A DNA stretch of 33,188 nucleotides from positions 1 to 33,188 of the forward strand of contig QMVZ01000003.1 in the NCBI GenBank assembly GCA_003661365.1. The letters run 5' to 3'. The translations under genes were made by a program, and so were the position numbers. Origin of the DNA: Thermoproteota archaeon (GTDB taxonomy: Archaea > Korarchaeota > Korarchaeia > Korarchaeales > Korarchaeaceae). The notes beneath the pieces are model-generated. The model saw only the letters and a program-made list of their open reading frames with translations. It did not search any database and was not told where the DNA came from. This document shows, piece by piece, positions 18,890 to 30,894 of this stretch; position 1 is the stretch's first letter; the number at the start of each line of letters is the position of its first letter.

Positions 18890-19150
18890 TTACTCCTCTT
18901 CAATGAGTTCATTTACAGGGATGAGCTGGGACTCCCCAGTTATCCTTTTCCTTTCTATTAGAAGTGGTAAACGCCCCAGTTTTAGTTCTAGCTCGGCTAG
19001 CTTGATAGGATCAACCTCTCCTTCGGGTATCTCGTCCTCTTTAAGAAAGAGTGGGGAGCCAGCAGCGATTTGTTGGGCTCTAAGAGCTATTATCCTGGTT
19101 TTTTCGTACCGAGTTAATCTTTTAGGACCTATAATTTCTTCTTGGTTCAC
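18890..19150 (-). CDS. rpoK: DNA-directed RNA polymerase subunit K (Rpo6)
   Basis: RNA polymerase assembly subunit, homologue of bacterial omega and eukaryotic Rpb6. The 86 aa protein contains the family core: LTRYEKTRIIALRAQQIAAG (conserved helix), then VDPIKLAELELKLGRLPLLIERK, and ends in an acidic tail. It starts with GTG at 19150, overlapping the thermosome stop by four bases (GTGA), so the two are cotranslated. An acidic loop (EDEIPEGEVD) precedes the second conserved helix. Confidence 0.94.
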   Translation of the reverse strand: MNQEEIIGPKRLTRYEKTRIIALRAQQIAAGSPLFLKEDEIPEGEVDPIKLAELELKLGRLPLLIERKRITGESQLIPVNELIEEE

Positions 19151-20766
19151 GTCTCTACTCCTGCTCCCTTCTTTGGAAATTCTGTCTTGCCTGCAGCTGC
19201 GATAATGTCATCAATCTTTAAGATCGTCTCTGCAAATTCAGCGGCGGATTTAACGGCGTGGCTTACAACCCTTAGCGGTTCAATTACGTTCCTTTCCTTC
19301 ATGTCAACTACATCTCCGGTGAATATGTCGAATCCCTGATAGACATTCCCTAAGGCATGCCTTCTCGTCAACTCGGCCATCTTAACTACTGTATCCATTC
19401 CAGAGTTCTCAACTAATGTTTTAGGTACGACTTCGAGGGCTTCAGCAAATTTCTGAACTGCTGCCTGTTCTTTTCCACTCAGGGTGTTTGCGTAGTCTTT
19501 CAGGCGAAGTGCCAGCTCTAATTCAACAGCCCCACCACCAACTACTATCTTTCCGTCTTCAATGACATCTCTTACTACGCAGAGAGCATCGTGCAAGGCA
19601 CGCTCTGTCTCGTCAACAATCTGCTTTGATCCTCCTCTTATTAGTATTGAGACTGCCTTGGGGTTCTTGCACCCTTCAACGAATACCATCTTATCTTCTC
19701 CGATTCGACGCTCTTCTACTAGTTCTGCGTGTCCTAGGTCTTTCTCAGACATATCCTCTAGATTGACCACGATCTTTGCACCAGTGGCTTTAGCAAGCTT
19801 CTCCATGTCCGATTTCCTTACCCTTCTTACCGCCAGGATTCCCTTCTTGGCCAAGAAGTGCTGAGCTATGTCATCTATTCCCTTCTGACAGAAGACCACA
19901 TTAGCTCCAGTAGCTGCTATCTTATCTATTAGATCTCCTATCATGGCTTTCTCTTGATCTAAGAATTCCTTGATTTGAGATGGAGAGACTATTCTTATTT
20001 TTGAGCTTATTTCTGGCTTCTTAACTTCTAGAGCTCTTGAGATTAAGGCTATTTTTGCGTCAGCTACGGTCTTTGGCATTGCTGGATGAACCACTTCTTT
20101 GTCGATGACTATCCCTTGTATTAGCTGAGTATCAAATATGGATCCGCCTTCTTTCTTTTCCAACTTTATGTTGTCGATGTCTGTGACCCTCTTTCCATCT
20201 CTCTCTTCTACTACTGCTAGACAGGCCTTAACTGCCAGCTCAGAAAGGTGAGCTTTTGCTGAAGATACCGCTTTGGATCCCATCGCTATCTCAGCAACTT
20301 GTTTTAAGACCTCCTCGTCGTTCCAGGCTACATCGATTGATATCCCGTTGAGAATCTCCTGAGCCTTCTTCTCTGCCTTTCTGTAACCTGATATCACTAT
20401 TGTTGGATGAATGCCCATGTCAATGAGCTCTTCCGCCTTAGATAGGAGTTCTCCCGCTAAGATCACGACTGTGGTAGTCCCATCGCCCGTCTCTTGATCT
20501 TGTGTCTTTGCTAAATCTACCATCATCTTGGCAATTGGATGCTCAACCTCCATCTCCTTCATTATTGTGGCGCCGTCATGGGTGATTATAACGTCCCCGA
20601 ATGGGTCTACTAGCATTTTTTGCATTCCTTTAGGACCTAGAGCAGTCCTCACTGCATCGGCTATCGCCTTTGCTACAGAAATGTTTAATCTTAGGGCTTC
20701 ACGCCCCCTGGTTCTACTAGTGCCCTCTTTGAGTATAAGAACTGGGATTTTCGCTCCTTCCGACAT
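19147..20766 (-). CDS. Thermosome subunit (group II chaperonin)
   Basis: ATP-driven folding chamber of archaea. From the ATG at 20766 the protein is 539 aa. It has the nucleotide-binding motifs ITHDGATI (61-68) and GDGTTT (94-99), and the C-terminal [14 protein letters not shown] of the equatorial domain. An upstream ATG at 20784 would add six residues, but GAGGTGG lies 5 bases before the 20766 ATG and is a much better ribosome site. A strong TATA box lies at 20850-20857. The C-terminus (KKGAGVET) lacks the Gly-Gly-Met tail. rpoK follows with a 4-base overlap. This is the only chaperonin gene in the window. Confidence 0.97.
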
Positions 20767-20849
20767 AAAAACCACCTCAATCATTATTTTCGCTCTTAGT
20801 AATCCCCTAGCTGCAGGAAACTACCATCTTAACCTTAAAGGTGCTTCCA

Positions 20850-20857
20850 TTTATAAA
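20850..20857 (-). promoter_or_regulatory. TATA box for thermosome
   Basis: Palindromic TTTATAAA, about 85 bases above the thermosome start at 20766, giving a predicted leader of roughly 60 bases. Confidence 0.6.
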
Positions 20858-21114
20858 CTCTAATATTACTCCTCGAAGCACTTTCATCGGCCTTTGTCTA
20901 GTGGATAAATGAAGGAGAGGAGATATTGCCTTAAAAGTAGTGAAACTTGATATCGAAGTCATAAAGGTACAAAAGAGAGCTTGAGTCTCGTCGATTGTAC
21001 TTCATTCATCAATAAATGCGTCGCGTACAGCATGGAAAATTAACTGTTTTAACAAAATCCCCCCGTCGTGTTTGAGATGAGGATTATCTGAGTGATTGCG
21101 TTTCTTTACGAAGA
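20858..21114. other. Intergenic region upstream of thermosome
   Basis: With the thermosome leader this makes about 350 bases without a gene. No open frame of note is visible on either strand. There is a nested inverted repeat: GTACAA (20967-20972) with TTGTAC (20995-21000), enclosing GAGA and TCTC. ACTTGATATCGAAGT (20945-20959) is a near-palindrome. A C-run at 21059-21064 lies downstream of the epimerase stop. The palindromes could be protein-binding sites or an unrecognised RNA. Confidence 0.4.
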
Positions 21115-22485
21115 CTATAGTCCCCAGAGCTTCTTAAAATCATTTATCGAGGGTTTTTCCCCAAGTACCCTGATTATCTGGCGACTTTTCAGCGTTAAGT
21201 CAGGGCAGGGTCTGACGAAGCTTCCATTCTTCTCGTAGATCGATATTATCTTAACTAAATCCCCTTCAGCTTCTTTTACCGTGCGACCTGAAAGTTCTTT
21301 GTTCACTATGAAGGAAGTATAAACTGGAGCTCCTGAATCGAATTTTGGAGGAGTAAAGGCGATTTTCTCCTCTTCTAACCAATTGAGTAGAACCTCTGAT
21401 ATCTTAATAGATGCAGTTCCATCTCCAAACGGATTTGGAGCGCTCTTAACTCTCTCTACTAAAGCACTGTTATACAGGAAGTCGCTTACACACCTCTCTA
21501 TTTTAAGGGGATCGACTCCAGCCATAACGCCTATTCCCTCATCGATGATCTCGGGTCTTTCCGTGCTGTCCCTCAACACTACACATGGGACCTTCAGGGT
21601 AGCTGCTTCCTCTTGAACCCCTCCAGAATCTGTTGCCACAACAGTTGAATTGTCTAGAAGCTTCAAGAAATCGAGATATGATAGTGGATCTGTTATCTTT
21701 ATGTGCTTTGCTGTATATAGGCTTTTCAGAAGCCCGATCTTCTCCATGTTTTCCTTCGTTCTGGGGTGGAGGGGCCAGATTATTTGAACCTCTTTTAATT
21801 CTATGAGTGCGTTTACAATTGATTCAAGCCTTTCGGGATTGTCAGCGTTTTCCCTCCTATGCACGGTTACCGTCATTAAGAACTTTGAGGGATCTACCTT
21901 CAATTTTTTCAGGATGTTCGACTCAGCCCTGGCCTTTGGCAACATCTTTAGCAGGGCGTCAACGACCGTGTTACCTGTTACAAAAGTTCTCTCTGGAGAG
22001 CAGCCTTCGTTGAGTAGATTTGATGCTGCTCTCTCAGTAGGTGCAAAATTTAGGCTTGCCACGTGATCTGCTACCTTCCTGTTGATCTCCTCAGGCATAG
22101 TTGGGTCAAAGCTCCTAAGACCAGATTCTACGTGCACGAAGGGTATGTCCATCTTAGAAGCCATGATGGCAGTAGCCAAAGTCGAGTTTGTGTCTCCTAC
22201 GGCCAAGATTGCGTCTGGAAGGTAAGTTCCCACGACTTCCTCGGTTTTTTCAATTATCTTGTAGATTTGATATGGTTGAGAGCCAGAACCTACTCCTAGA
22301 TGATATAAAGGGGTAGGCAATCCCAATTCCTCAATAAAAATCCCGCTCATATTCCAATCGTAGTGCTGTCCGGTGTGCACCAGATCCACTTGGACGCCAG
22401 AACTCTTCCTAAGGGTATGAAAAAGGGGAGCAGCCTTTATAATCTCAGGTCTGGTGCCAACAAAAAAGAGTAGCCTCGGTAGCAT
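21115..22485 (-). CDS. wecB: UDP-GlcNAc 2-epimerase (WecB type) fused to a C-terminal TrkA-C (RCK_C)-like domain
   Basis: Converts UDP-GlcNAc to UDP-ManNAc for surface polysaccharide or glycan synthesis. Residues 1 to about 375 are a complete non-hydrolysing epimerase: FFVGTRPEIIK at the start, GDTNSTLA, HVESGLRSFDP, the PEEINRK segment, and DSGGVQEEA. The family is normally about 360-380 aa. About 72 further residues (GAPVYTSF to the end) read as a TrkA-C domain: SFIVNKELSGRTVKEAEG, VKIISIYEKNG, then P-x-PDLTL and IIRVLGEKP. Such domains bind small ligands in potassium channel regulators. I chose the ATG at 22485, preceded by GTGGAG; a GTG at 22497 would add four residues. It stands alone, with a TATA-like TTTAATAT near 22508-22515. 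Epimerase certain; extra domain likely. Confidence 0.9.
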   Translation of the reverse strand: MLPRLLFFVGTRPEIIKAAPLFHTLRKSSGVQVDLVHTGQHYDWNMSGIFIEELGLPTPLYHLGVGSGSQPYQIYKIIEKTEEVVGTYLPDAILAVGDTNSTLATAIMASKMDIPFVHVESGLRSFDPTMPEEINRKVADHVASLNFAPTERAASNLLNEGCSPERTFVTGNTVVDALLKMLPKARAESNILKKLKVDPSKFLMTVTVHRRENADNPERLESIVNALIELKEVQIIWPLHPRTKENMEKIGLLKSLYTAKHIKITDPLSYLDFLKLLDNSTVVATDSGGVQEEAATLKVPCVVLRDSTERPEIIDEGIGVMAGVDPLKIERCVSDFLYNSALVERVKSAPNPFGDGTASIKISEVLLNWLEEEKIAFTPPKFDSGAPVYTSFIVNKELSGRTVKEAEGDLVKIISIYEKNGSFVRPCPDLTLKSRQIIRVLGEKPSINDFKKLWGL

Positions 22486-22577
22486 TTCCCGCTCCACGAT
22501 CAGACTTGATATTAAAGTTATAAGCTACCATGTATCGCTGACGTAGTGGACATAGTAATGCTTTAGGAGGTGAATGG

Positions 22578-24752
22578 ATGTTCAGAGCAGTTCCAACTAA
22601 GCGTTTCTATCTCTATACGGCTAAGTGGAACAGAGATAGGCTAGTAAATGCACTTCTAGATTTTAACGAAGTAGAACTGACAGATATAAAGGATCCAGAA
22701 CTAAAACCATTGAAAGAAACTACAGAACTAGATGAATTTTATACGAAAGTACTTTTGAAGCTCAAACTCAAGTTAGAAGAAATAGAAGAGATCGTAGGTA
22801 AGAAGATTAGAACAGAAGATGTGGAAGGGGCTCTCTATATCACTCCAGAAGATGCCGAGAAGTTGCTAAAAAAAGTTGATGAAAAAATAGCTTTACTCAG
22901 AAATCTATTGGATCCTAAGTTGATTGAAAAAAGGAGAAAGGAGCTAGAGGAGGTTAACAATAAACTTGCCTGGTTAGAAGAAGAGATACTTTCTTCCCTT
23001 GAACCAAAGGTGAGAGCCAGTCTTAGGATTGAAGAAAAACATGCAAGGATATTTGAAGTTCTAAGCTTTTTAGAGGAGAACATAGATTCAATGGAGAAAA
23101 CAATTAAGGAAATTGCACAAAATCCCTCAAAAATTAAAGACAAGACATCAACCGTATACGAACTGACCGACTTGCTGTCTAAAATGGAGGAGAACTGGTT
23201 TTCTCTGCCGGAAGATATCAGAAACAGGATATCAAAAAAGTTCGAGAGACTGAAGGAGGGAATACATGAACTAGAATCACTAATGAACCAGCTATCAAAT
23301 CAAGAGAAAGAGGCTGAGGAGGTCCAGCTGACCTTTCATGACGAAATTATAAAGACTTGTCAGGATCTCCTAAGGTTCTTAGACGAGTTCAGGGGCGAGA
23401 TAGCAGACATAGGAAATTCGGTTCTTTCAACGTCAGTTTTGCTTTCCGAGGGCTTTTCTCTCGAGAAAGTGCTACCAGAATACGTTCAGAAGGCTAAACC
23501 TCTGATAGAGCGGAAAAGAAATCTTGAGGCAGAGATATCTTTGTTTGAAGATCTGTTTGAAAGAAGAGCTACTGAGATAGAGCGACTCAAGCAAGACATC
23601 CTCGGGCTGGGACAAAACATTGTGGCAGTTATGTTATGGATAAAGGGATTTCTTCTAAACTCAAAGATATTAGAATGCATCTATGAGGGAGAGAGAATCA
23701 TTGCGGTCTCTGGATGGATCCCGACCTCTTTAGAAGAGGAATTCAAACAGCATATGAGTTCTAGATTGGGACCTCTAATGGAGCTTAGATTAGAAGAAGA
23801 TAAGATGGGCCCATCTTACATACACCTTCCAAGGATATTTGCCCCATTCAGACTCCTAACACATAAAATGGTCGGATATCCTAAGGCCAAACAGCTCGAC
23901 CCAACGCCCTTGGTTTCTCTTCTATTTCCCATAATGTTTGGAATTATGTTTGGGGATATTGGTCATGGTCTAGCTGCGCTCTTATTTGGACTTTTCCTAC
24001 GAAGGAAGAAGGGAACTCTTAGAGATCTTGGAGGCATACTGGTGCCCATGGGAATATGTTCGATGTTCTTCGGTCTTCTATACGGAGAAGCCTTTCTGAA
24101 AGAGGTTTACCATCCGATTCTCTTCTCACCGATACACGAGCCCATCAGGATCCTCCTTGTAGCAATAATCTTCGGCCTTATCCATCTAAATATAGCGTTT
24201 ACTGCCAATATAGTCAGTAAACTCGGGGAAGGAAGGTATTTGGATGCAATATTTCACCATGGTGGATTGCTCACAGTAGGTATGTATGACTTGGCAGCCT
24301 ATGCAGTCTATAGGACAGGAGGAGATGTAATGTCGGCTTTAAAAGATCCCTTCATGATGGGCGCGGCTTGCCTGCTCGGAATAACCATGCTAGTTATGAT
24401 GATTGAGCCCAAGCTAAAGGGACATGGAATGTTTGAAGGGATCATGGAAGCTTTTGAGGCAGCTCTCGAAGGAACCATTGGTTTGCTTGCAAACACCCTC
24501 TCATATTTGAGGTTAGCTGGTTTTGCCATTTCTCACGCAGCGTTTGGCATAATTGTCAAATCTATTGTTGGAGAGGGCGGAAGTCTGCCGACATTCATCA
24601 TAGCATCTGCATCAATGAACCTGCTCGCCATGGGCTTGGAGGGTATGGCGGCATTTATTCAAGCTACTAGGCTTACCCTATACGAATTTATGACCAAATT
24701 CTTCAAAGGAGAGGGAAGAGCACTAAAAACGATAGATAGCTTGGTTGGATAA
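22578..24752 (+). CDS. atpI: A-type ATP synthase subunit I (a subunit)
   Basis: Membrane stator that forms the ion half-channels of the A-type ATP synthase. The 724 aa protein has a soluble N-terminal half (about 1-410) with long coiled coils and a C-terminal half with about seven membrane segments, beginning TPLVSLLFPIMFGIMFGD. The essential arginine lies in LSYLRLAGFAIS near residue 645. The GHGLAALLFG motif follows the first helix. The ATG at 22578 has an ideal AGGAGGTG site 5 bases upstream. The proteolipid gene atpK follows on the same strand, while all other subunits are on the opposite strand. Confidence 0.95.
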   Translation: MFRAVPTKRFYLYTAKWNRDRLVNALLDFNEVELTDIKDPELKPLKETTELDEFYTKVLLKLKLKLEEIEEIVGKKIRTEDVEGALYITPEDAEKLLKKVDEKIALLRNLLDPKLIEKRRKELEEVNNKLAWLEEEILSSLEPKVRASLRIEEKHARIFEVLSFLEENIDSMEKTIKEIAQNPSKIKDKTSTVYELTDLLSKMEENWFSLPEDIRNRISKKFERLKEGIHELESLMNQLSNQEKEAEEVQLTFHDEIIKTCQDLLRFLDEFRGEIADIGNSVLSTSVLLSEGFSLEKVLPEYVQKAKPLIERKRNLEAEISLFEDLFERRATEIERLKQDILGLGQNIVAVMLWIKGFLLNSKILECIYEGERIIAVSGWIPTSLEEEFKQHMSSRLGPLMELRLEEDKMGPSYIHLPRIFAPFRLLTHKMVGYPKAKQLDPTPLVSLLFPIMFGIMFGDIGHGLAALLFGLFLRRKKGTLRDLGGILVPMGICSMFFGLLYGEAFLKEVYHPILFSPIHEPIRILLVAIIFGLIHLNIAFTANIVSKLGEGRYLDAIFHHGGLLTVGMYDLAAYAVYRTGGDVMSALKDPFMMGAACLLGITMLVMMIEPKLKGHGMFEGIMEAFEAALEGTIGLLANTLSYLRLAGFAISHAAFGIIVKSIVGEGGSLPTFIIASASMNLLAMGLEGMAAFIQATRLTLYEFMTKFFKGEGRALKTIDSLVG

Positions 24753-24764
24753 GTGATTGGAAAA

Positions 24765-24776
24765 TATTTTAATAAA
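24765..24776 (+). promoter_or_regulatory. Probable separate promoter for atpK
   Basis: TATTTTAATAAA lies 13 bases after the atpI stop and predicts a start near 24797, 8 bases before the atpK ATG. A separate promoter would help make the c subunit in excess, as ring stoichiometry requires. Confidence 0.45.
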
Positions 24777-24804
24777 TCCATGTAGGGGGCAAGGGGAGAT
24801 TCAT

Positions 24805-25143
24805 ATGTCTGCGTCGACGAGAAAGATCTTGCTTTACTCCTTTATCCTAGTTCCGTTGGTCATTATATTCATAGCAGGGCACGTAATGGCTGTGGCGGCA
24901 GCAGAGGAAGTGGAGGCCATGGATGAAGAAGCTAGGAAATGGGCATTTATTGGTGCTGGTGTAGCTGTCGCAGCAAGCACATTTAATGCAGCTTGGGCAC
25001 TTCGTGCCGTCGCAATAGGCGGGACTGCCCTCCTTACAGAAAGACCTGAACAGTTCGGCGCCGTTCTACTTCTCGGAGGTCTTGCTGAGGGCGTCGCCAT
25101 ATACGGCTTGCTAGTGGCCATTCTAATACTTGGAAAGATATGA
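24805..25143 (+). CDS. atpK: A-type ATP synthase subunit K (proteolipid c subunit)
   Basis: Forms the rotating membrane ring. From the ATG at 24805 it is 112 aa. A first hydrophobic segment (8-30) ending in VMAVAAAEE looks like a signal peptide. It is followed by two membrane helices (about 46-72 and 83-109). The ion-binding glutamate is E95 in GGLAEGVAIYGLL; the neighbour is Gly rather than the Ser/Thr of sodium-binding rings, which mildly favours protons. A TTG at 24757 would extend the frame, but the ATG has AAGGGGAGA upstream and a TATA box between. Its last 21 bases overlap the end of atpC on the other strand. Confidence 0.93.
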   Translation: MSASTRKILLYSFILVPLVIIFIAGHVMAVAAAEEVEAMDEEARKWAFIGAGVAVAASTFNAAWALRAVAIGGTALLTERPEQFGAVLLLGGLAEGVAIYGLLVAILILGKI

Positions 25144-26151
25144 AGCTATCCCAACTATCCTTCGGAGGGTTTCAGACGAAACCCCCTCTTTCTTACCTAT
25201 AACTACTAATCTAATGGCCTGTGACTCCCATTCTGTTCTAAGGATGTACCAAATTGTATACGATACACCTACAAAGTTTCTCCTTGCAATTAGGCATGCC
25301 CTTTCAAGCAAATCACTGAATAGTATGAATTCCCATAAGAGAGGCTCCTCAATCTCCTTATGAACAGTAAGTATCCTCTTTGCTATCGCCGAATATCTGT
25401 TTAAGGTTGAAATTTTCTTTAGCGCCTCTTCAAAACTCTTCGTCGCTGATAGAATGTCATAAGCTTCTTGATCCATGGTTTCTTGCAATACTTGGATTCT
25501 ATCGGCCCTATCGCAATAAATGGCTCTCAGACAGACAACTACTAACCTCCCATCTACATATTTACGAAAAAGTTCTCTTAACTTTTTATCAATGAGACGA
25601 GTTTTAAGCTTCTTTGTAAGTAATTCTGCGTAAGATCTCTCCAGCAACATATCTAACAGAGCAATATCTTCCTCCCCGCTCTCTCTCCATTCTTCCATCG
25701 CTCTAAATATGGGTTCTACTTCTTTTGAGGGAGGTTTTCTTTTCATTTCGATCAACTGATATACTCCTGGGAGGAACTCGGCAGGAAAAACTTCTATGGG
25801 CACTTCTTGCTCGAATCTTTTGGCGTAAATCGTTCTTCTTAACCTCTCTATATCATATTTTGAAAGGTATGCGCACACAATTCCCGCCATTTTCTCATCA
25901 AGAAGGGAGAGGATGTAAGAAATTCTCTCATACATCAGTTTGTTTATGCGGGCTTCGATTTCCCTGTTGTCGAGGAGGTCATCTCTCGTCCTGAAGAACT
26001 TTCCGTACTCGGTGTTTCTGAGCTTTTCGAGCAATTGATCAAGATCCTCGGTATCAATAAGTGAGAGGAGATCCTTGTATGATAAGAGATGGAGAGCCAA
26101 CCCATGGCTTCTTATCACAGAGTATAGCCTCTTTCCACTAAACATTCTCAT
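25123..26151 (-). CDS. atpC: A-type ATP synthase subunit C
   Basis: Central-stalk adapter (the V-ATPase subunit d equivalent) linking the rotor shaft to the c-ring. The 342 aa protein is entirely helical and soluble. It shows the YDIERLRRTIYAKRF segment of the family, and RNFVGVSYTIWYILRTEWESQAIRLVVIGK near the C-terminus. The ATG at 26151 overlaps the atpD stop by 4 bases. It is the last gene of the F-H-E-A-B-D-C unit and ends inside the convergent atpK gene. Confidence 0.93.
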   Translation of the reverse strand: MRMFSGKRLYSVIRSHGLALHLLSYKDLLSLIDTEDLDQLLEKLRNTEYGKFFRTRDDLLDNREIEARINKLMYERISYILSLLDEKMAGIVCAYLSKYDIERLRRTIYAKRFEQEVPIEVFPAEFLPGVYQLIEMKRKPPSKEVEPIFRAMEEWRESGEEDIALLDMLLERSYAELLTKKLKTRLIDKKLRELFRKYVDGRLVVVCLRAIYCDRADRIQVLQETMDQEAYDILSATKSFEEALKKISTLNRYSAIAKRILTVHKEIEEPLLWEFILFSDLLERACLIARRNFVGVSYTIWYILRTEWESQAIRLVVIGKKEGVSSETLRRIVGIASYLSKY

Positions 26152-26765
26152 ACACCTCTCTTCAACATTCTATACTTCTTAATCCTGAGGAAATCCTCCA
26201 AGCTTTCCTCTTCCAATCTCTCTTCTATGTACTTGATCGCTCTCTCATGTTCTGGTATGATCACCTTTCTCAGCGTGTTAACTCTTCTCATGGTATCTGC
26301 GACCTCAATGGCAAGTCTCTCAAGGGCTGCTTCCAGCATAACGACATCTATCAATCTATCCATCATTCGTTGAAGTCCATCCAGGGCTGAAATCAGAGGT
26401 GCTTGTATGGAAGGTGATGGTTTGAAGCCCTTTTGAACGATTTGAGCTCCTGGTATCTCTACTCCCATGAGGCTAGTTGTTTTGACTTTAACTAGGAAGG
26501 GCTGGCTCAGTAGTGCAGCCTTCCTCATCTCTTCAACTCCAGCAATTGCATAAGCCACCTTTAACTGCTCGTAGACCTCCATCATCTCTTTGTCTAACTC
26601 TTTTCTTTCAATCAACCTTCCTTGAAGCGCTGAGAGCTCTTTGATTAGCTTATCTCTCTTCATTTCAAGGGTTTCTGCTCCCATTTTGAAGAATTCGACC
26701 CTTTTCCTAAGTTTTATTAGAAAGCCCTTCGTGGGAGCTACCCTTCCTACGGCTCTAAAGGCCAC
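26148..26765 (-). CDS. atpD: A-type ATP synthase subunit D (rotor shaft)
   Basis: Forms the antiparallel coiled-coil shaft that turns inside the A3B3 head. The 205 aa protein has an N-terminal APTKGFLIKLRKRVEFFKMGAETL (the family P-T-K/R start followed by L-K-x-K-R-D) and a C-terminal helix with IIPEHERAIKYIEERLEEE. The start is GTG at 26765, 5 bases after the atpB stop; the next Met is within the first conserved helix. It overlaps atpC by 4 bases. Confidence 0.94.
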   Translation of the reverse strand: MAFRAVGRVAPTKGFLIKLRKRVEFFKMGAETLEMKRDKLIKELSALQGRLIERKELDKEMMEVYEQLKVAYAIAGVEEMRKAALLSQPFLVKVKTTSLMGVEIPGAQIVQKGFKPSPSIQAPLISALDGLQRMMDRLIDVVMLEAALERLAIEVADTMRRVNTLRKVIIPEHERAIKYIEERLEEESLEDFLRIKKYRMLKRGV

Positions 26766-26770
26766 TCAAT

Positions 26771-28159
26771 TCACCCAGCCCTGTACTTCGGATGGTACTC
26801 TTTCATCACTTCCTCGCTTATCCTGGTAAGCTCCCTCTCGGGAATCATCGACAAGAGTTCCCACGCTATATCTAAGGTTTCTTCGATGGTTCTCCTCTCT
26901 TCAAACCCTTGCTTTACGAACTTCTCCTCAAATTCCGTTGCAAACTCATAGTACCTTTTCTCCCTCTCGCTCAATCCGGCCTCTCCTATAATGCTGGCAA
27001 GCTCCCTAGCCCTAGTTCCCATGGAATATGTAGCATAAAGCTGGTCTGAAACAGCCTTATGATCTTTTCTGGTCTTACCTTCACCTATTCCATCCTTCAT
27101 GAGCCTGCTAAGGCTCGGAAGAACGTCTATGGGCGGATATATCCCCCTGTTGTAGAGGGTAGTGCTCAGGAAGATCTGTCCCTCGGTGATGTATCCGGTG
27201 AGGTCTGGGATCGGATGGGTAAAGTCGCCTCCAGGCATCGTCAGTATTGGCATTAGAGTGATGGATCCAAGCCTTCCCTTTATTCTACCAGCTCTCTCAT
27301 AGAGGGATGCTAGATCGCTATACATGTACCCAGGGTAGCCCTTCCTGCTTGGAACTTCTTCCCTAGCAGCACTGATTTCCCTTAAAGCCTCGCAGTAGTT
27401 GGTCATGTCGGTCATTATGACGAGGACGTCCATACCTAAGTCGAAAGCAAGGTATTCAGCAGCTGTCAAGGCAACTCTAGGCGTAGTAAGCCTCTCAATA
27501 ACAGGGTCGTCTGCAAGGTTGAGAAACATGACCGACCTGCTCAAAGCCCCTAGTGCCTCGAACTGCTCCATGAAGAACCTTACTTCCTCTGTCTTCAGGC
27601 CTATGGCGGCGAAAACTATGGAAAACCTCTCCTCCTTTCCTGGAACGAACGCTTGTCGTGCTATCTGGGCAGCCAGTTCATTGTGAGGAAGACCCGATAT
27701 TGAGAAGATTGGAAGCTTCTGTCCTCTGACAAGGCTTAGCATTCCGTCTATAGCGGATATCCCCGTTTCGACGAACTCGTCCGGATAGTCCCTGCTAACA
27801 GGGTTTATTGGCTTTCCATCTATTTCCCTATAGTCCTCGGGTCTAATTGGAGGACCCCCGTCTATTGGCTGACCAGCGCCATTGAACATCCTACCTATCA
27901 TATCGCTGGAAACCGGAAGTTGAAGGGTCGTTCCTGTGAACTTTATCATGGCGTCGCTTTCAATTCCTTCTGGATCTCCCAGTACTTGGATTATCACCAT
28001 GTCCTTTCCAGCTTCTAGAACCTGTCCAGTCCATTCCCTGCCCTCTTCGGTGAAGATCTTGACTACTTCACCGTACTTAGCGTCAGGCACCCCTCTCATG
28101 ATGACGAGGGGTCCCTTTACCTGATCGATGCCCCTATACGTTAGTCCGCTAATACTCAT
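26771..28159 (-). CDS. atpB: A-type ATP synthase subunit B (regulatory head subunit)
   Basis: Non-catalytic nucleotide-binding subunit that alternates with A in the head. The 462 aa length is standard. The P-loop is degenerate ([14 protein letters not shown]), as in all B subunits. Conserved blocks include [65 protein letters not shown] and [18 protein letters not shown]. The ATG overlaps the atpA stop by one base (TAATG). Confidence 0.97.
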
Positions 28160-29940
28160 TATATCACCACCCTTTTCACGAGCGAAATCTCCTTCTCAAG
28201 CTTCTCCATTATGTTCTTTATGGCTTCTTCTACCCTATCTTCCTCTAGAAACTTTAGCCTTCCAAGATCTCCGATGACTTCCATTTTTTCTATCTCTGTA
28301 AATGGAACGCCAGCGTCTACGAGGGGCTTAACTTTCTTGTAGAATTCTAGGAGTGTCTTCAAGATTAGGACCTGCTTTCGCGGAGAGCAGTAAGTATCCA
28401 CTTCATGATAAGCGTTCTGCACCAAGAAACCTTCCCTTATCAGTTCTCCTACCAAAATGATCAGTCTGTTCTCGTCGGAGAGGGCACTTTCCCCGACAAC
28501 GCTAGCTATCTCTTCGAGGCGGGAGGATTCTTGAAGTATGGTCATGGCTTCCTCTCGTGGTGCATACATGTCCATCTCCACTTGCCTTATCCACCACTTC
28601 CTAACGTTATCCACGTACTTTGAGAAGCTCTGAAGCCAGTTTATTGCTGGAAAGTGCCTTTTGAATGCGAGAGTTGTATCGAGAGCCCAGAAGGTTCCCA
28701 CATACCTGATTGTGTGCTGAGTTACTGGCTCGTTTAGATCTCCTCCCGAAGGGCTTACTGCTCCAATTATGCTTACTGATCCTACCCTTCCATCCCCTCC
28801 TAGCGTCCTTACCTTGCCACCTCTTTCGTAGAAAGCCGCTATAAAGTCAGGTAGGTATGCTGGATATCCTCTCTCAGATGGGATCTCCTCAAGCCTAGAG
28901 CTGAGCTCTCTCAGAGCTTCCGCCCAACGAGATGTGGAATCAGCGGTCAAAACGACGTGATAGCCCATGTCCCTGTAGTACTCGGCATATGTAATGCCGA
29001 CGAAGATGCTGGCCTCCCTAGCTGGCACAGGCATGTTACTAGTGTTTGCAATTAGTATGCTCCTCCTCATGAGAGGAGCGCCAGTTCTAGGATCTACAAG
29101 CTTGGGGAAGTGGAGAAGGAGGTCTGTCATCTCGTTCCCTCTCTCCCCGCACCCCACATACACCACTACATCTGCATCTGCCCACTTAGAAATCTGGTGA
29201 AGCGTCACGGTCTTACCCGTTCCAAATCCTCCCGGAATGGCTGCAGTTCCCCCTTTCGAGATCGGGAAGAACGTGTCGATAACCCTCTGTCCGGTTACCA
29301 GCAGCTCGGTTGCTCCTAAGTATTCCTTAAACGGCCTTGGAACTCTAACTGGCCACTTATGGTACATCTTAAGTTCTATTTCCCTTGAATCCTCTCTTAG
29401 GGTGGCGATAACGTCTTCAATCTGGTAGGTTCCCTCAGGAACCACATCAACGACCTCTACCCTCCTCAAGTTGGGAGGAACCATTATCCTGTGGGTTATA
29501 GCTCCCTCAGGAACCTCTCCAATGACGCTTCCAGGTTCAAGCCTATCTCCCTTCTTAACAAGGGGCTTAAACTCCCACTTTCTGTCTCTTGGAAGAGTCG
29601 GAAGCCTTATACCTCTCTCTATGAAGGAGCCCGTCATCTCTGCGATCTTCTCTAAAGGCCTTCCAAGACCATCTAGAACCTGGCCTAAGAGTCCGGGGCC
29701 TAGCTCAACGCTAAGGGGCTCACCAGTCCTCTTAACAGGCTCTCCAGGGGACATCCCTGTCGTTGTCTCGTAGATCTGGATAACTGCTGTATCTCCCTCT
29801 ATTCTAACGATCTCCCCAGTTAGCTCCTCCTCTCCCACCAAGACGACCTCTCTTACCCTGGCCCCCCTCATGTTATCGGCTATAACGACGGAACCCTTAA
29901 TGTGCCTGATAACCCCTATACCTAACTCCTCGTTACTCAT
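28159..29940 (-). CDS. atpA: A-type ATP synthase subunit A (catalytic)
   Basis: Catalytic ATP-hydrolysing or -forming subunit. The 593 aa length is normal. The N-terminal beta barrel and non-homologous bulge region are present, followed by Walker [10 protein letters not shown] at about 235-243 (PFGSGKT in many relatives), [28 protein letters not shown], and [19 protein letters not shown]. No intein is present, although atpA is a common intein host. It overlaps atpE by 4 bases and atpB by 1. Confidence 0.97.
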
Positions 29941-30593
29941 TCATCACTCCCTCCAAAAAGCAGATCTATAAGCTTTGGCTCGTTTCTTTCCCTATAACCC
30001 ACAAGCCTTCCATCAAATGTGTTGTAAAACCTCCTTGTGTCACCCTCGTCCCTCGCTATTACGCCGCCTATTACGAAGGCCTGCTTTGTCACATCCACCT
30101 GCATGTCCACATTCATCTCCTTGCTCAGCCTCTCAGCCACCTTTCTCAGAACTGATAAGTCCTTTCCCTTCCCCCAGATATACAATTTGTTAGTCCCAAG
30201 TGCTTCGGCCGCCTCTCTGGCGTATTTCATCAGAATCTCCTCATAATTCCACTCTGGTAGCTTGTTTTCAGCTATAAGTGCAAGCTGCTCCCTTACTTTT
30301 TCGAAAAGAAGGTCAAGATATCTTTTCTGCATGGTGAGGATTTCCCTCTTTATCTTTATCTCTACCGCGCTGCTCTTCTTTGCTATCTCATCCTTAACCT
30401 TTCTGTCTATCTCCTTCTTCTTTGCCTCTATTATCCTGTTAGCCCTTCTTTCGGCTTCCTTAATTATCCTTTCAGCTTCTTCTTTCGCCTGAGAGATTAT
30501 CTCATCTGCCTTTCGCTTCGATACCTCTAAGATCGACTCTATCATCTCTTCAAGTTCCTTTCTCTCTACCGCTTCGACCTCAGCCTTCTTCAC
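29937..30593 (-). CDS. atpE: A-type ATP synthase subunit E (peripheral stalk)
   Basis: Pairs with subunit H to form the peripheral stalk that holds the head still. The 218 aa protein has an N-terminal coiled coil (residues 5-90, rich in Ala, Glu, Lys with 11-residue spacing: AKEEAERIIKEAERRA) and a C-terminal globular domain with VIARDEGDTRRFYNTFDGRL, the family signature. The start is GTG at 30593, inside atpH by 14 bases, so translation is coupled to its binding partner. Confidence 0.94.
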   Translation of the reverse strand: MKKAEVEAVERKELEEMIESILEVSKRKADEIISQAKEEAERIIKEAERRANRIIEAKKKEIDRKVKDEIAKKSSAVEIKIKREILTMQKRYLDLLFEKVREQLALIAENKLPEWNYEEILMKYAREAAEALGTNKLYIWGKGKDLSVLRKVAERLSKEMNVDMQVDVTKQAFVIGGVIARDEGDTRRFYNTFDGRLVGYRERNEPKLIDLLFGGSDE

Positions 30594-30894
30594 CTAGGAC
30601 TACCCCCCTCAAAACGATTTCAACTGCCTTTTCTATGTTCTTCTTTGCAAGCTCCTCCATCTCTGTTAGCTTTCCTGTCATTTCCTTGGTTATCTTTTCT
30701 ACCTCTTTCTCCACGATCTCATCTATGTTAGTGCCCAGCACTATGGTTTCAGCAGATCTCTCAGCTTCCTCCACTATTTCCTTTGCCCTCTTCTTTGCTT
30801 CCTCCACTATTTCCTTTGCCTGTTTTCTAGCATTCTCCAAAATCTCTCTAGACTTCTTGTCTGCCTCTACAATCAGTTCGACTAATCTTGGCAT
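30580..30894 (-). CDS. atpH: A-type ATP synthase subunit H (peripheral stalk coil)
   Basis: Small, almost wholly coiled-coil partner of subunit E. The 104 aa protein has 11-residue (hendecad) repeats, NARKQAKEIVEEAKKRA and KEIVEEAERSAETIV, which form the right-handed coil known for this subunit. The ATG at 30894 has GGGGGAAT upstream. It lies 13 bases after atpF and overlaps atpE by 14 bases. Sequence identity is low in this family, so the call rests on coil pattern, size and position. Confidence 0.85.
   Translation of the reverse strand: MPRLVELIVEADKKSREILENARKQAKEIVEEAKKRAKEIVEEAERSAETIVLGTNIDEIVEKEVEKITKEMTGKLTEMEELAKKNIEKAVEIVLRGVVLGEEG
30764..30820 (-). repeat. 33-base tandem duplication in atpH
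   Basis: Two identical 24-base segments (30764-30787 and 30797-30820) lie exactly 33 bases apart, i.e. 11 codons, matching one hendecad of the coil. The DNA identity, not only the protein pattern, points to a recent duplication or conversion of a coil unit. Confidence 0.85.

Follow-up and report, generated by a model that had tools for sequence, protein, structure and literature searches.

A UDP-GlcNAc 2-epimerase with a C-terminal RCK_C domain in Korarchaeota and other archaea, and a probable role of the tail as a control switch

On the minus strand of a korarchaeotal contig (QMVZ01000003.1, positions 1 to 33,188; this whole stretch of 33,188 nucleotides is called the window here), a complete UDP-GlcNAc 2-epimerase runs in frame into a short C-terminal tail, which raises the question of whether the tail is a genuine domain and what it does for the enzyme. 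A first-pass annotation, made from the sequence alone, had read the tail as a TrkA_C-like (RCK_C) ligand-binding domain at 21118-21333, and its reading of the motifs was correct, while its coordinates are close to the folded span obtained here (21124-21327). The features of the protein and its gene are as follows:

21115..22497, minus strand: fused ORF including the stop, 460 aa from GTG
22485, minus strand: ATG, alternative start of the fused ORF (456 aa), the start taken in the first-pass annotation
21118-22497, minus strand: coding span without the stop, 460 aa, epimerase followed by C-terminal RCK_C/TrkA_C
21382..22470, minus strand: non-hydrolysing UDP-GlcNAc 2-epimerase domain (WecB), residues 10-372, from TIGR00236, PF02350 and the Foldseek match to 4nes
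21328..21381, minus strand: linker, residues 373-390, with the class-conserved motif P-x-F-x-x-G-(S/A)-P and AlphaFold2 pLDDT <50 at residues 378-388
21124..21327, minus strand: RCK_C (TrkA_C) domain, residues 391-458 as folded, from PF02080, AlphaFold2 and Foldseek
21127-21303, minus strand: PF02080 match, residues 399-457

The epimerase half is a full-length non-hydrolysing UDP-GlcNAc 2-epimerase. It scores 363.3 bits against TIGR00236 over residues 10-372 (cut-off 210.15) and matches PF02350 with an E value of 1.8e-105, and the best structural match of the full AlphaFold2 model is the M. jannaschii epimerase 4nes (Foldseek E 1.4e-34, 43% identity). Key positions were assigned by correspondence with those given in PMC11464976 and PMC10622841. 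The protein has D102, E124, E136 and H213 in the catalytic positions (counterparts of E. coli D95, E117, E131 and H213) and Q44, H45, R214 and H244 in the allosteric site (counterparts of T. thermophilus Q40, H41, R209 and H240). All eight are invariant wherever aligned among the tailed enzymes. Because the residues of the UDP-GlcNAc allosteric site are intact, the tail is, judging from the sequence, an addition to an enzyme that has retained its known UDP-GlcNAc control site. A UDP-2,3-diacetamido-sugar may be an alternative substrate of this epimerase. The M. jannaschii enzyme (4neq/4nes) has the same full-length catalytic fold and the same catalytic and UDP-GlcNAc allosteric residues as the window protein, but in solved epimerases the chain, of 367-413 residues, goes no further than the catalytic domain (matches stop by about query residue 376), whereas in the window protein about 87 more residues follow, with RCK_C.

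The tail by itself matches PF02080 at 29.9 bits (E 5.3e-7), above the cut-off of 27, and scores 29.4 bits in a six-frame search of the genome, but within the whole protein the score is 26.5 bits, marginally below the Pfam cut-off. Of 16 diverged tails taken from genomes of relatives, 15 also match PF02080. The whole K. cryptofilum-like protein (L105) gave no TrkA_C match at E 0.01, and automatic annotation often misses the tail. A phmmer search of the PDB with the single tail found nothing useful, and a tail profile reached KtrA and MthK at E values of only 0.1-0.6, so that the sequence by itself would not have settled the fold. In a profile comparison by hhalign, the tail matched a pair of TrkA_C domains that a second protein of this genome carries, at 95% probability (E 3.8e-8). 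That genome, which is incomplete, holds three TrkA_C matches, namely the epimerase tail and the two copies in this PhoU-TrkA_C protein, which adjoins an MgtE-like divalent cation transporter (L001, contig C140, 1474-2688 and 115-1311).

Structure prediction points the same way. AlphaFold2 modelled the full protein (6 sequences) with a mean pLDDT of 87, the tail being mostly at 77-90 and joined by a flexible linker at 378-388; the tail alone (2 sequences) reached a pLDDT of about 92 over the domain, from tail residue 21 onward. The predicted order of elements is strand, helix, strand, short strands, strand, helix. When the tail model was compared with the PDB by Foldseek, all 50 best matches were RCK proteins (E 8e-5 to 7e-4, probability 1.00), with TM-scores of about 0.62-0.71 for nearly all, rmsd mostly of 1.5-2 A and identities of about 12-22%. 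Nearly all of them are regulators or channels of K+ transport, and they include KhtT, the calcium-gated channel MthK, KtrA, the TrkA-type TM1088, BusR and one animal Slo1 channel. The AlphaFold2 and Foldseek results thus give the tail the beta-alpha-beta-beta-beta-alpha fold of RCK_C rather than a different one, and a chance match to TrkA_C is ruled out by the predicted structure together with the hhalign comparison. The two checks that the first-pass annotation had proposed for its domain call, an HMM search against PF02080 and a predicted structure set against RCK_C, therefore both bear it out.

The fusion is not peculiar to this contig. The enzyme was found in 28 of the 29 genomes of the window's phylum (Korarchaeota), and the tail, whole or partial, in 23 of the 26 genomes of the window's class; since the in-frame fusion recurs in this way, an assembly or frameshift artefact is ruled out and the epimerase-RCK_C fusion is genuine. 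The three exceptions in the class are a genome with a degenerate tail (G026), one whose enzyme, 87% identical, ends at a contig end (G028), and an incomplete genome without a match. The tail is absent from all three phylum genomes that belong to other classes. In genus g5, the tails at two loci (L033 and L039) are degenerate, 61-67 residues long and hard to recognise as RCK_C, which suggests ongoing loss or a misplaced 3' end; genome G027 also has a copy whose tail is intact (L030). Some genomes of the class (G017 with L040, G006 with L036) have in addition an epimerase from a different subfamily that is without a tail and has none of the same neighbour genes.

Across nine class pairs, omega of the tail is 0.03-0.14, compared with 0.03-0.07 for the epimerase, and the tail is under purifying selection in Korarchaeota. 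These tail values rule out a decaying read-through tail in the class; for some Methanobacteriales pairs this is less clear, some pairs from that order and from other archaea showing weak tail constraint (omega 0.5-0.86, few sites). The tail nevertheless drifts faster than the enzyme, with a mean identity of 39% versus 58%, and no invariant pattern of ligand-contacting residues was seen in it beyond the structural P, G and V. With the BusR pocket as reference (I153, G154, V158, A164-I166 and P181, a hydrophobic pocket with a proline that contacts adenine), the pocket proline lies near its expected place in the window protein and is shifted or missing in many relatives, as placed by sequence alignment only.

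A search of 394 archaea found enzymes longer than the catalytic domain in further families, including Methanobacteriales, among whose carriers are M. thermautotrophicus-like, M. smithii-like and M. stadtmanae-like genomes; in Thermococcus-like and Methanocaldococcus-like families of the same search the enzymes end after the catalytic domain. The search for other WecB-TrkA_C fusions that the first-pass annotation had called for was thus productive both within the class and in several archaeal families. These other tails are 64-77 residues long (one has 92), sit at the same position as those of the class and follow the pattern L-x-G-K ... V-x-R-V-I-x-x-G-x-x-x-F-P-x-x-x-L-x-L-K-x-G. They lack the final RCK_C helix, and even weak matches to PF02080 are limited to 7 of 17, so the short tails may not keep the binding pocket. 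When the class tails (A1) and the short tails (A2) were compared by hhalign, the probability was 96.9% (E 1.5e-10), part of the score coming from the linker, and the two sets share position and pattern. In a single-sequence HMM control, only about 5 of 16 tails separated from shuffles. Given this weak control and the share of the linker in the score, the case for relatedness of the A1 and A2 tails appears good but not overwhelming.

As for origin, the tailed enzymes fall in a few clades of the catalytic-domain tree, and a constraint uniting all 57 tailed entries was not rejected (p-AU 0.42), which makes one old origin followed by losses possible. In bacteria, a search with the M. thermautotrophicus protein covered 198 Bacteroidota genomes and four single bacterial genomes; the matches listed stop close to where the catalytic domain finishes, apart from a few that run on through stop codons. 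No paper on an epimerase-RCK_C fusion was found among open-licence papers, in keeping with the earlier statement that no example had been described, but the fusion is far from isolated, being class-wide and present in a short version in other archaea.

In the window (19147-24752), the epimerase gene lies between a thermosome gene and a divergent gene for A-type ATPase subunit I. This arrangement recurs at L005, L105 (K. cryptofilum-like) and L109, with 1-2 ORFs between the epimerase and thermosome genes. Of the A-type ATPase genes of the window (22578-30894), those for subunits I and c/K form a pair on the plus strand, and those for C, D, B, A and the small subunits form a block on the minus strand. 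Of the 29 phylum genomes, 28 have genes, at non-adjacent positions, for nucleotide-sugar dehydrogenases predicted to be able to use UDP-ManNAc. The epimerase gene of the M. thermautotrophicus-like genome is followed immediately downstream by one for a nucleotide-sugar dehydrogenase whose best match is to UDP-ManNAc dehydrogenase models, and this adjacency supports a role of the tailed epimerase in the supply of UDP-ManNAc/UDP-ManNAcA.

Since the fusion is genuine and old and has been retained in several groups of archaea, the tail is probably a control switch. The first-pass suggestion of a regulatory add-on gains support from the conservation of the tail, from the purifying selection on it and from its separateness from the intact UDP-GlcNAc site. 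More specifically, we favor a model in which a working UDP-GlcNAc/UDP-ManNAc 2-epimerase of archaeal surface-sugar synthesis carries an RCK_C tail that dimerises, binds a small ligand and gives a second regulatory input, and we give this full model about an even chance. The epimerase would be expected to be dimeric, as its relatives are, and its two RCK_C tails would probably pair, as RCK_C domains do. RCK_C domains are reported to pair with the ligand between the protomers, and the isolated RCK_C of BusR is a dimer that is rotated by its ligand (PMC8517857). A small ligand held in the cleft between the paired tails would then shift the protomers relative to each other. Non-hydrolysing epimerases are controlled through a movement that opens and closes them over the active site (PMC11464976), and the shift could tune this movement, and with it epimerisation, on top of activation by UDP-GlcNAc. 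Candidate ligands would be a nucleotide sugar from a later step of the pathway, some other nucleotide or a cation.

Another conceivable ligand is c-di-AMP, which the tail would sense as KtrA, KhtT and BusR do, coupling the supply of surface sugars to the osmotic or potassium state of the cell. The best structural and sequence neighbours of the tail do include the c-di-AMP-binding domains of these three proteins, and a diadenylate cyclase gene is present in 7 of 20 short-tailed genomes outside Methanobacteriales. But the match between tail and RCK_C is one of fold, with MthK, which does not bind c-di-AMP, as close as KhtT; and PF02457 was found in none of the 29 phylum genomes (17 of them >90% complete), while 11 of 14 control genomes were positive, and in none of the eight tailed Methanobacteriales tested (G287, G168, G253, G385, G202, G030, G337 and G072). 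Crenarchaeota have likewise been reported to be without diadenylate cyclase (PMC6741144). Because of this absence from both groups, c-di-AMP is rejected as the general ligand, and the earlier suggestion of it as a signal is not borne out; in the phylum it is largely excluded unless there is a diadenylate cyclase of another family or uptake. We regard c-di-AMP sensing by the tail as highly improbable. The main rival is a tail that works as a ligand-free structural clamp, dimerising to join the epimerase subunits or making the enzyme more stable where cells are hot or salty; this is nearly as plausible as a sensor, although we would put it at somewhat doubtful when taken by itself. The rapid drift of a sequence whose fold is yet conserved would suit a clamp, as would the lack of a conserved pocket pattern and of diadenylate cyclase in the class; the conserved linker motif resembles a docking element, and RCK_C domains are dimeric even without ligand (PMC8517857). 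Against a clamp, hyperthermophilic archaeal epimerases without a tail (for example relatives of M. jannaschii 4neq, families f10 and f46) need none, and RCK_C domains generally serve to sense ligands.

The tail could also act as a tether that heterodimerises with a membrane or partner protein, for example a glycosyltransferase, a dehydrogenase or a K+ transporter with its own RCK. RCK_C domains do pair, contacts of this kind make up RCK rings, and the other TrkA_C domains of the same genome sit in a protein next to an MgtE-like transporter; but the epimerase gene shares no operon with an RCK partner, its neighbours being A-type ATPase and thermosome genes, and the neighbouring sugar dehydrogenase in M. 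thermautotrophicus is without an RCK domain, and so we consider a tether unlikely. Returning to the switch, a bolder version of it, which we put forward only tentatively, is an ancient archaeal control in which RCK_C gates the synthesis of the UDP-ManNAc precursor via a ligand that is new for RCK_C (e.g., a divalent cation or a nucleotide sugar formed later in the pathway), the module having been present in the common ancestor, before the split between the korarchaeotal and Methanobacteriales epimerases.

Comparison with known systems shows what is familiar here and what is not. The K+ regulators KhtT (7agv/7ahm), MthK (2aef etc.), S. aureus KtrA (4xtt) and TM1088 (3jxo) share the tail fold and PF02080, whereas the window tail is joined to a biosynthetic enzyme and accompanied by neither RCK_N nor a channel, in a phylum without c-di-AMP synthesis genes. 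BusR, a GntR-type transcription factor (7b5t), likewise has an RCK_C module on a non-transporter, where it gives small-molecule control (PMC8517857), but differs in its DNA-binding partner domain, its c-di-AMP ligand and its lack of any relation to sugar metabolism. A possible model of the logic is the human GNE epimerase, a UDP-GlcNAc 2-epimerase that is reported to be feedback-inhibited by the downstream sugar nucleotide CMP-Neu5Ac (PMC4793188); it belongs to the hydrolysing family and is not known to carry RCK_C, and the likeness is one of logic only.

Both halves of the protein belong to well-known families, and what is new is their combination, a sensor-type domain attached to an epimerase, which is widespread in archaea. 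Should the tail prove to be a sensor, a biosynthetic enzyme would be under the control of a domain best known from regulators of K+ channels, and a signal input would have been added at the first step towards archaeal ManNAc-type sugars. Archaea that have the fused RCK_C but are without diadenylate cyclase would be well suited to a search for RCK_C ligands beyond c-di-AMP and cations.
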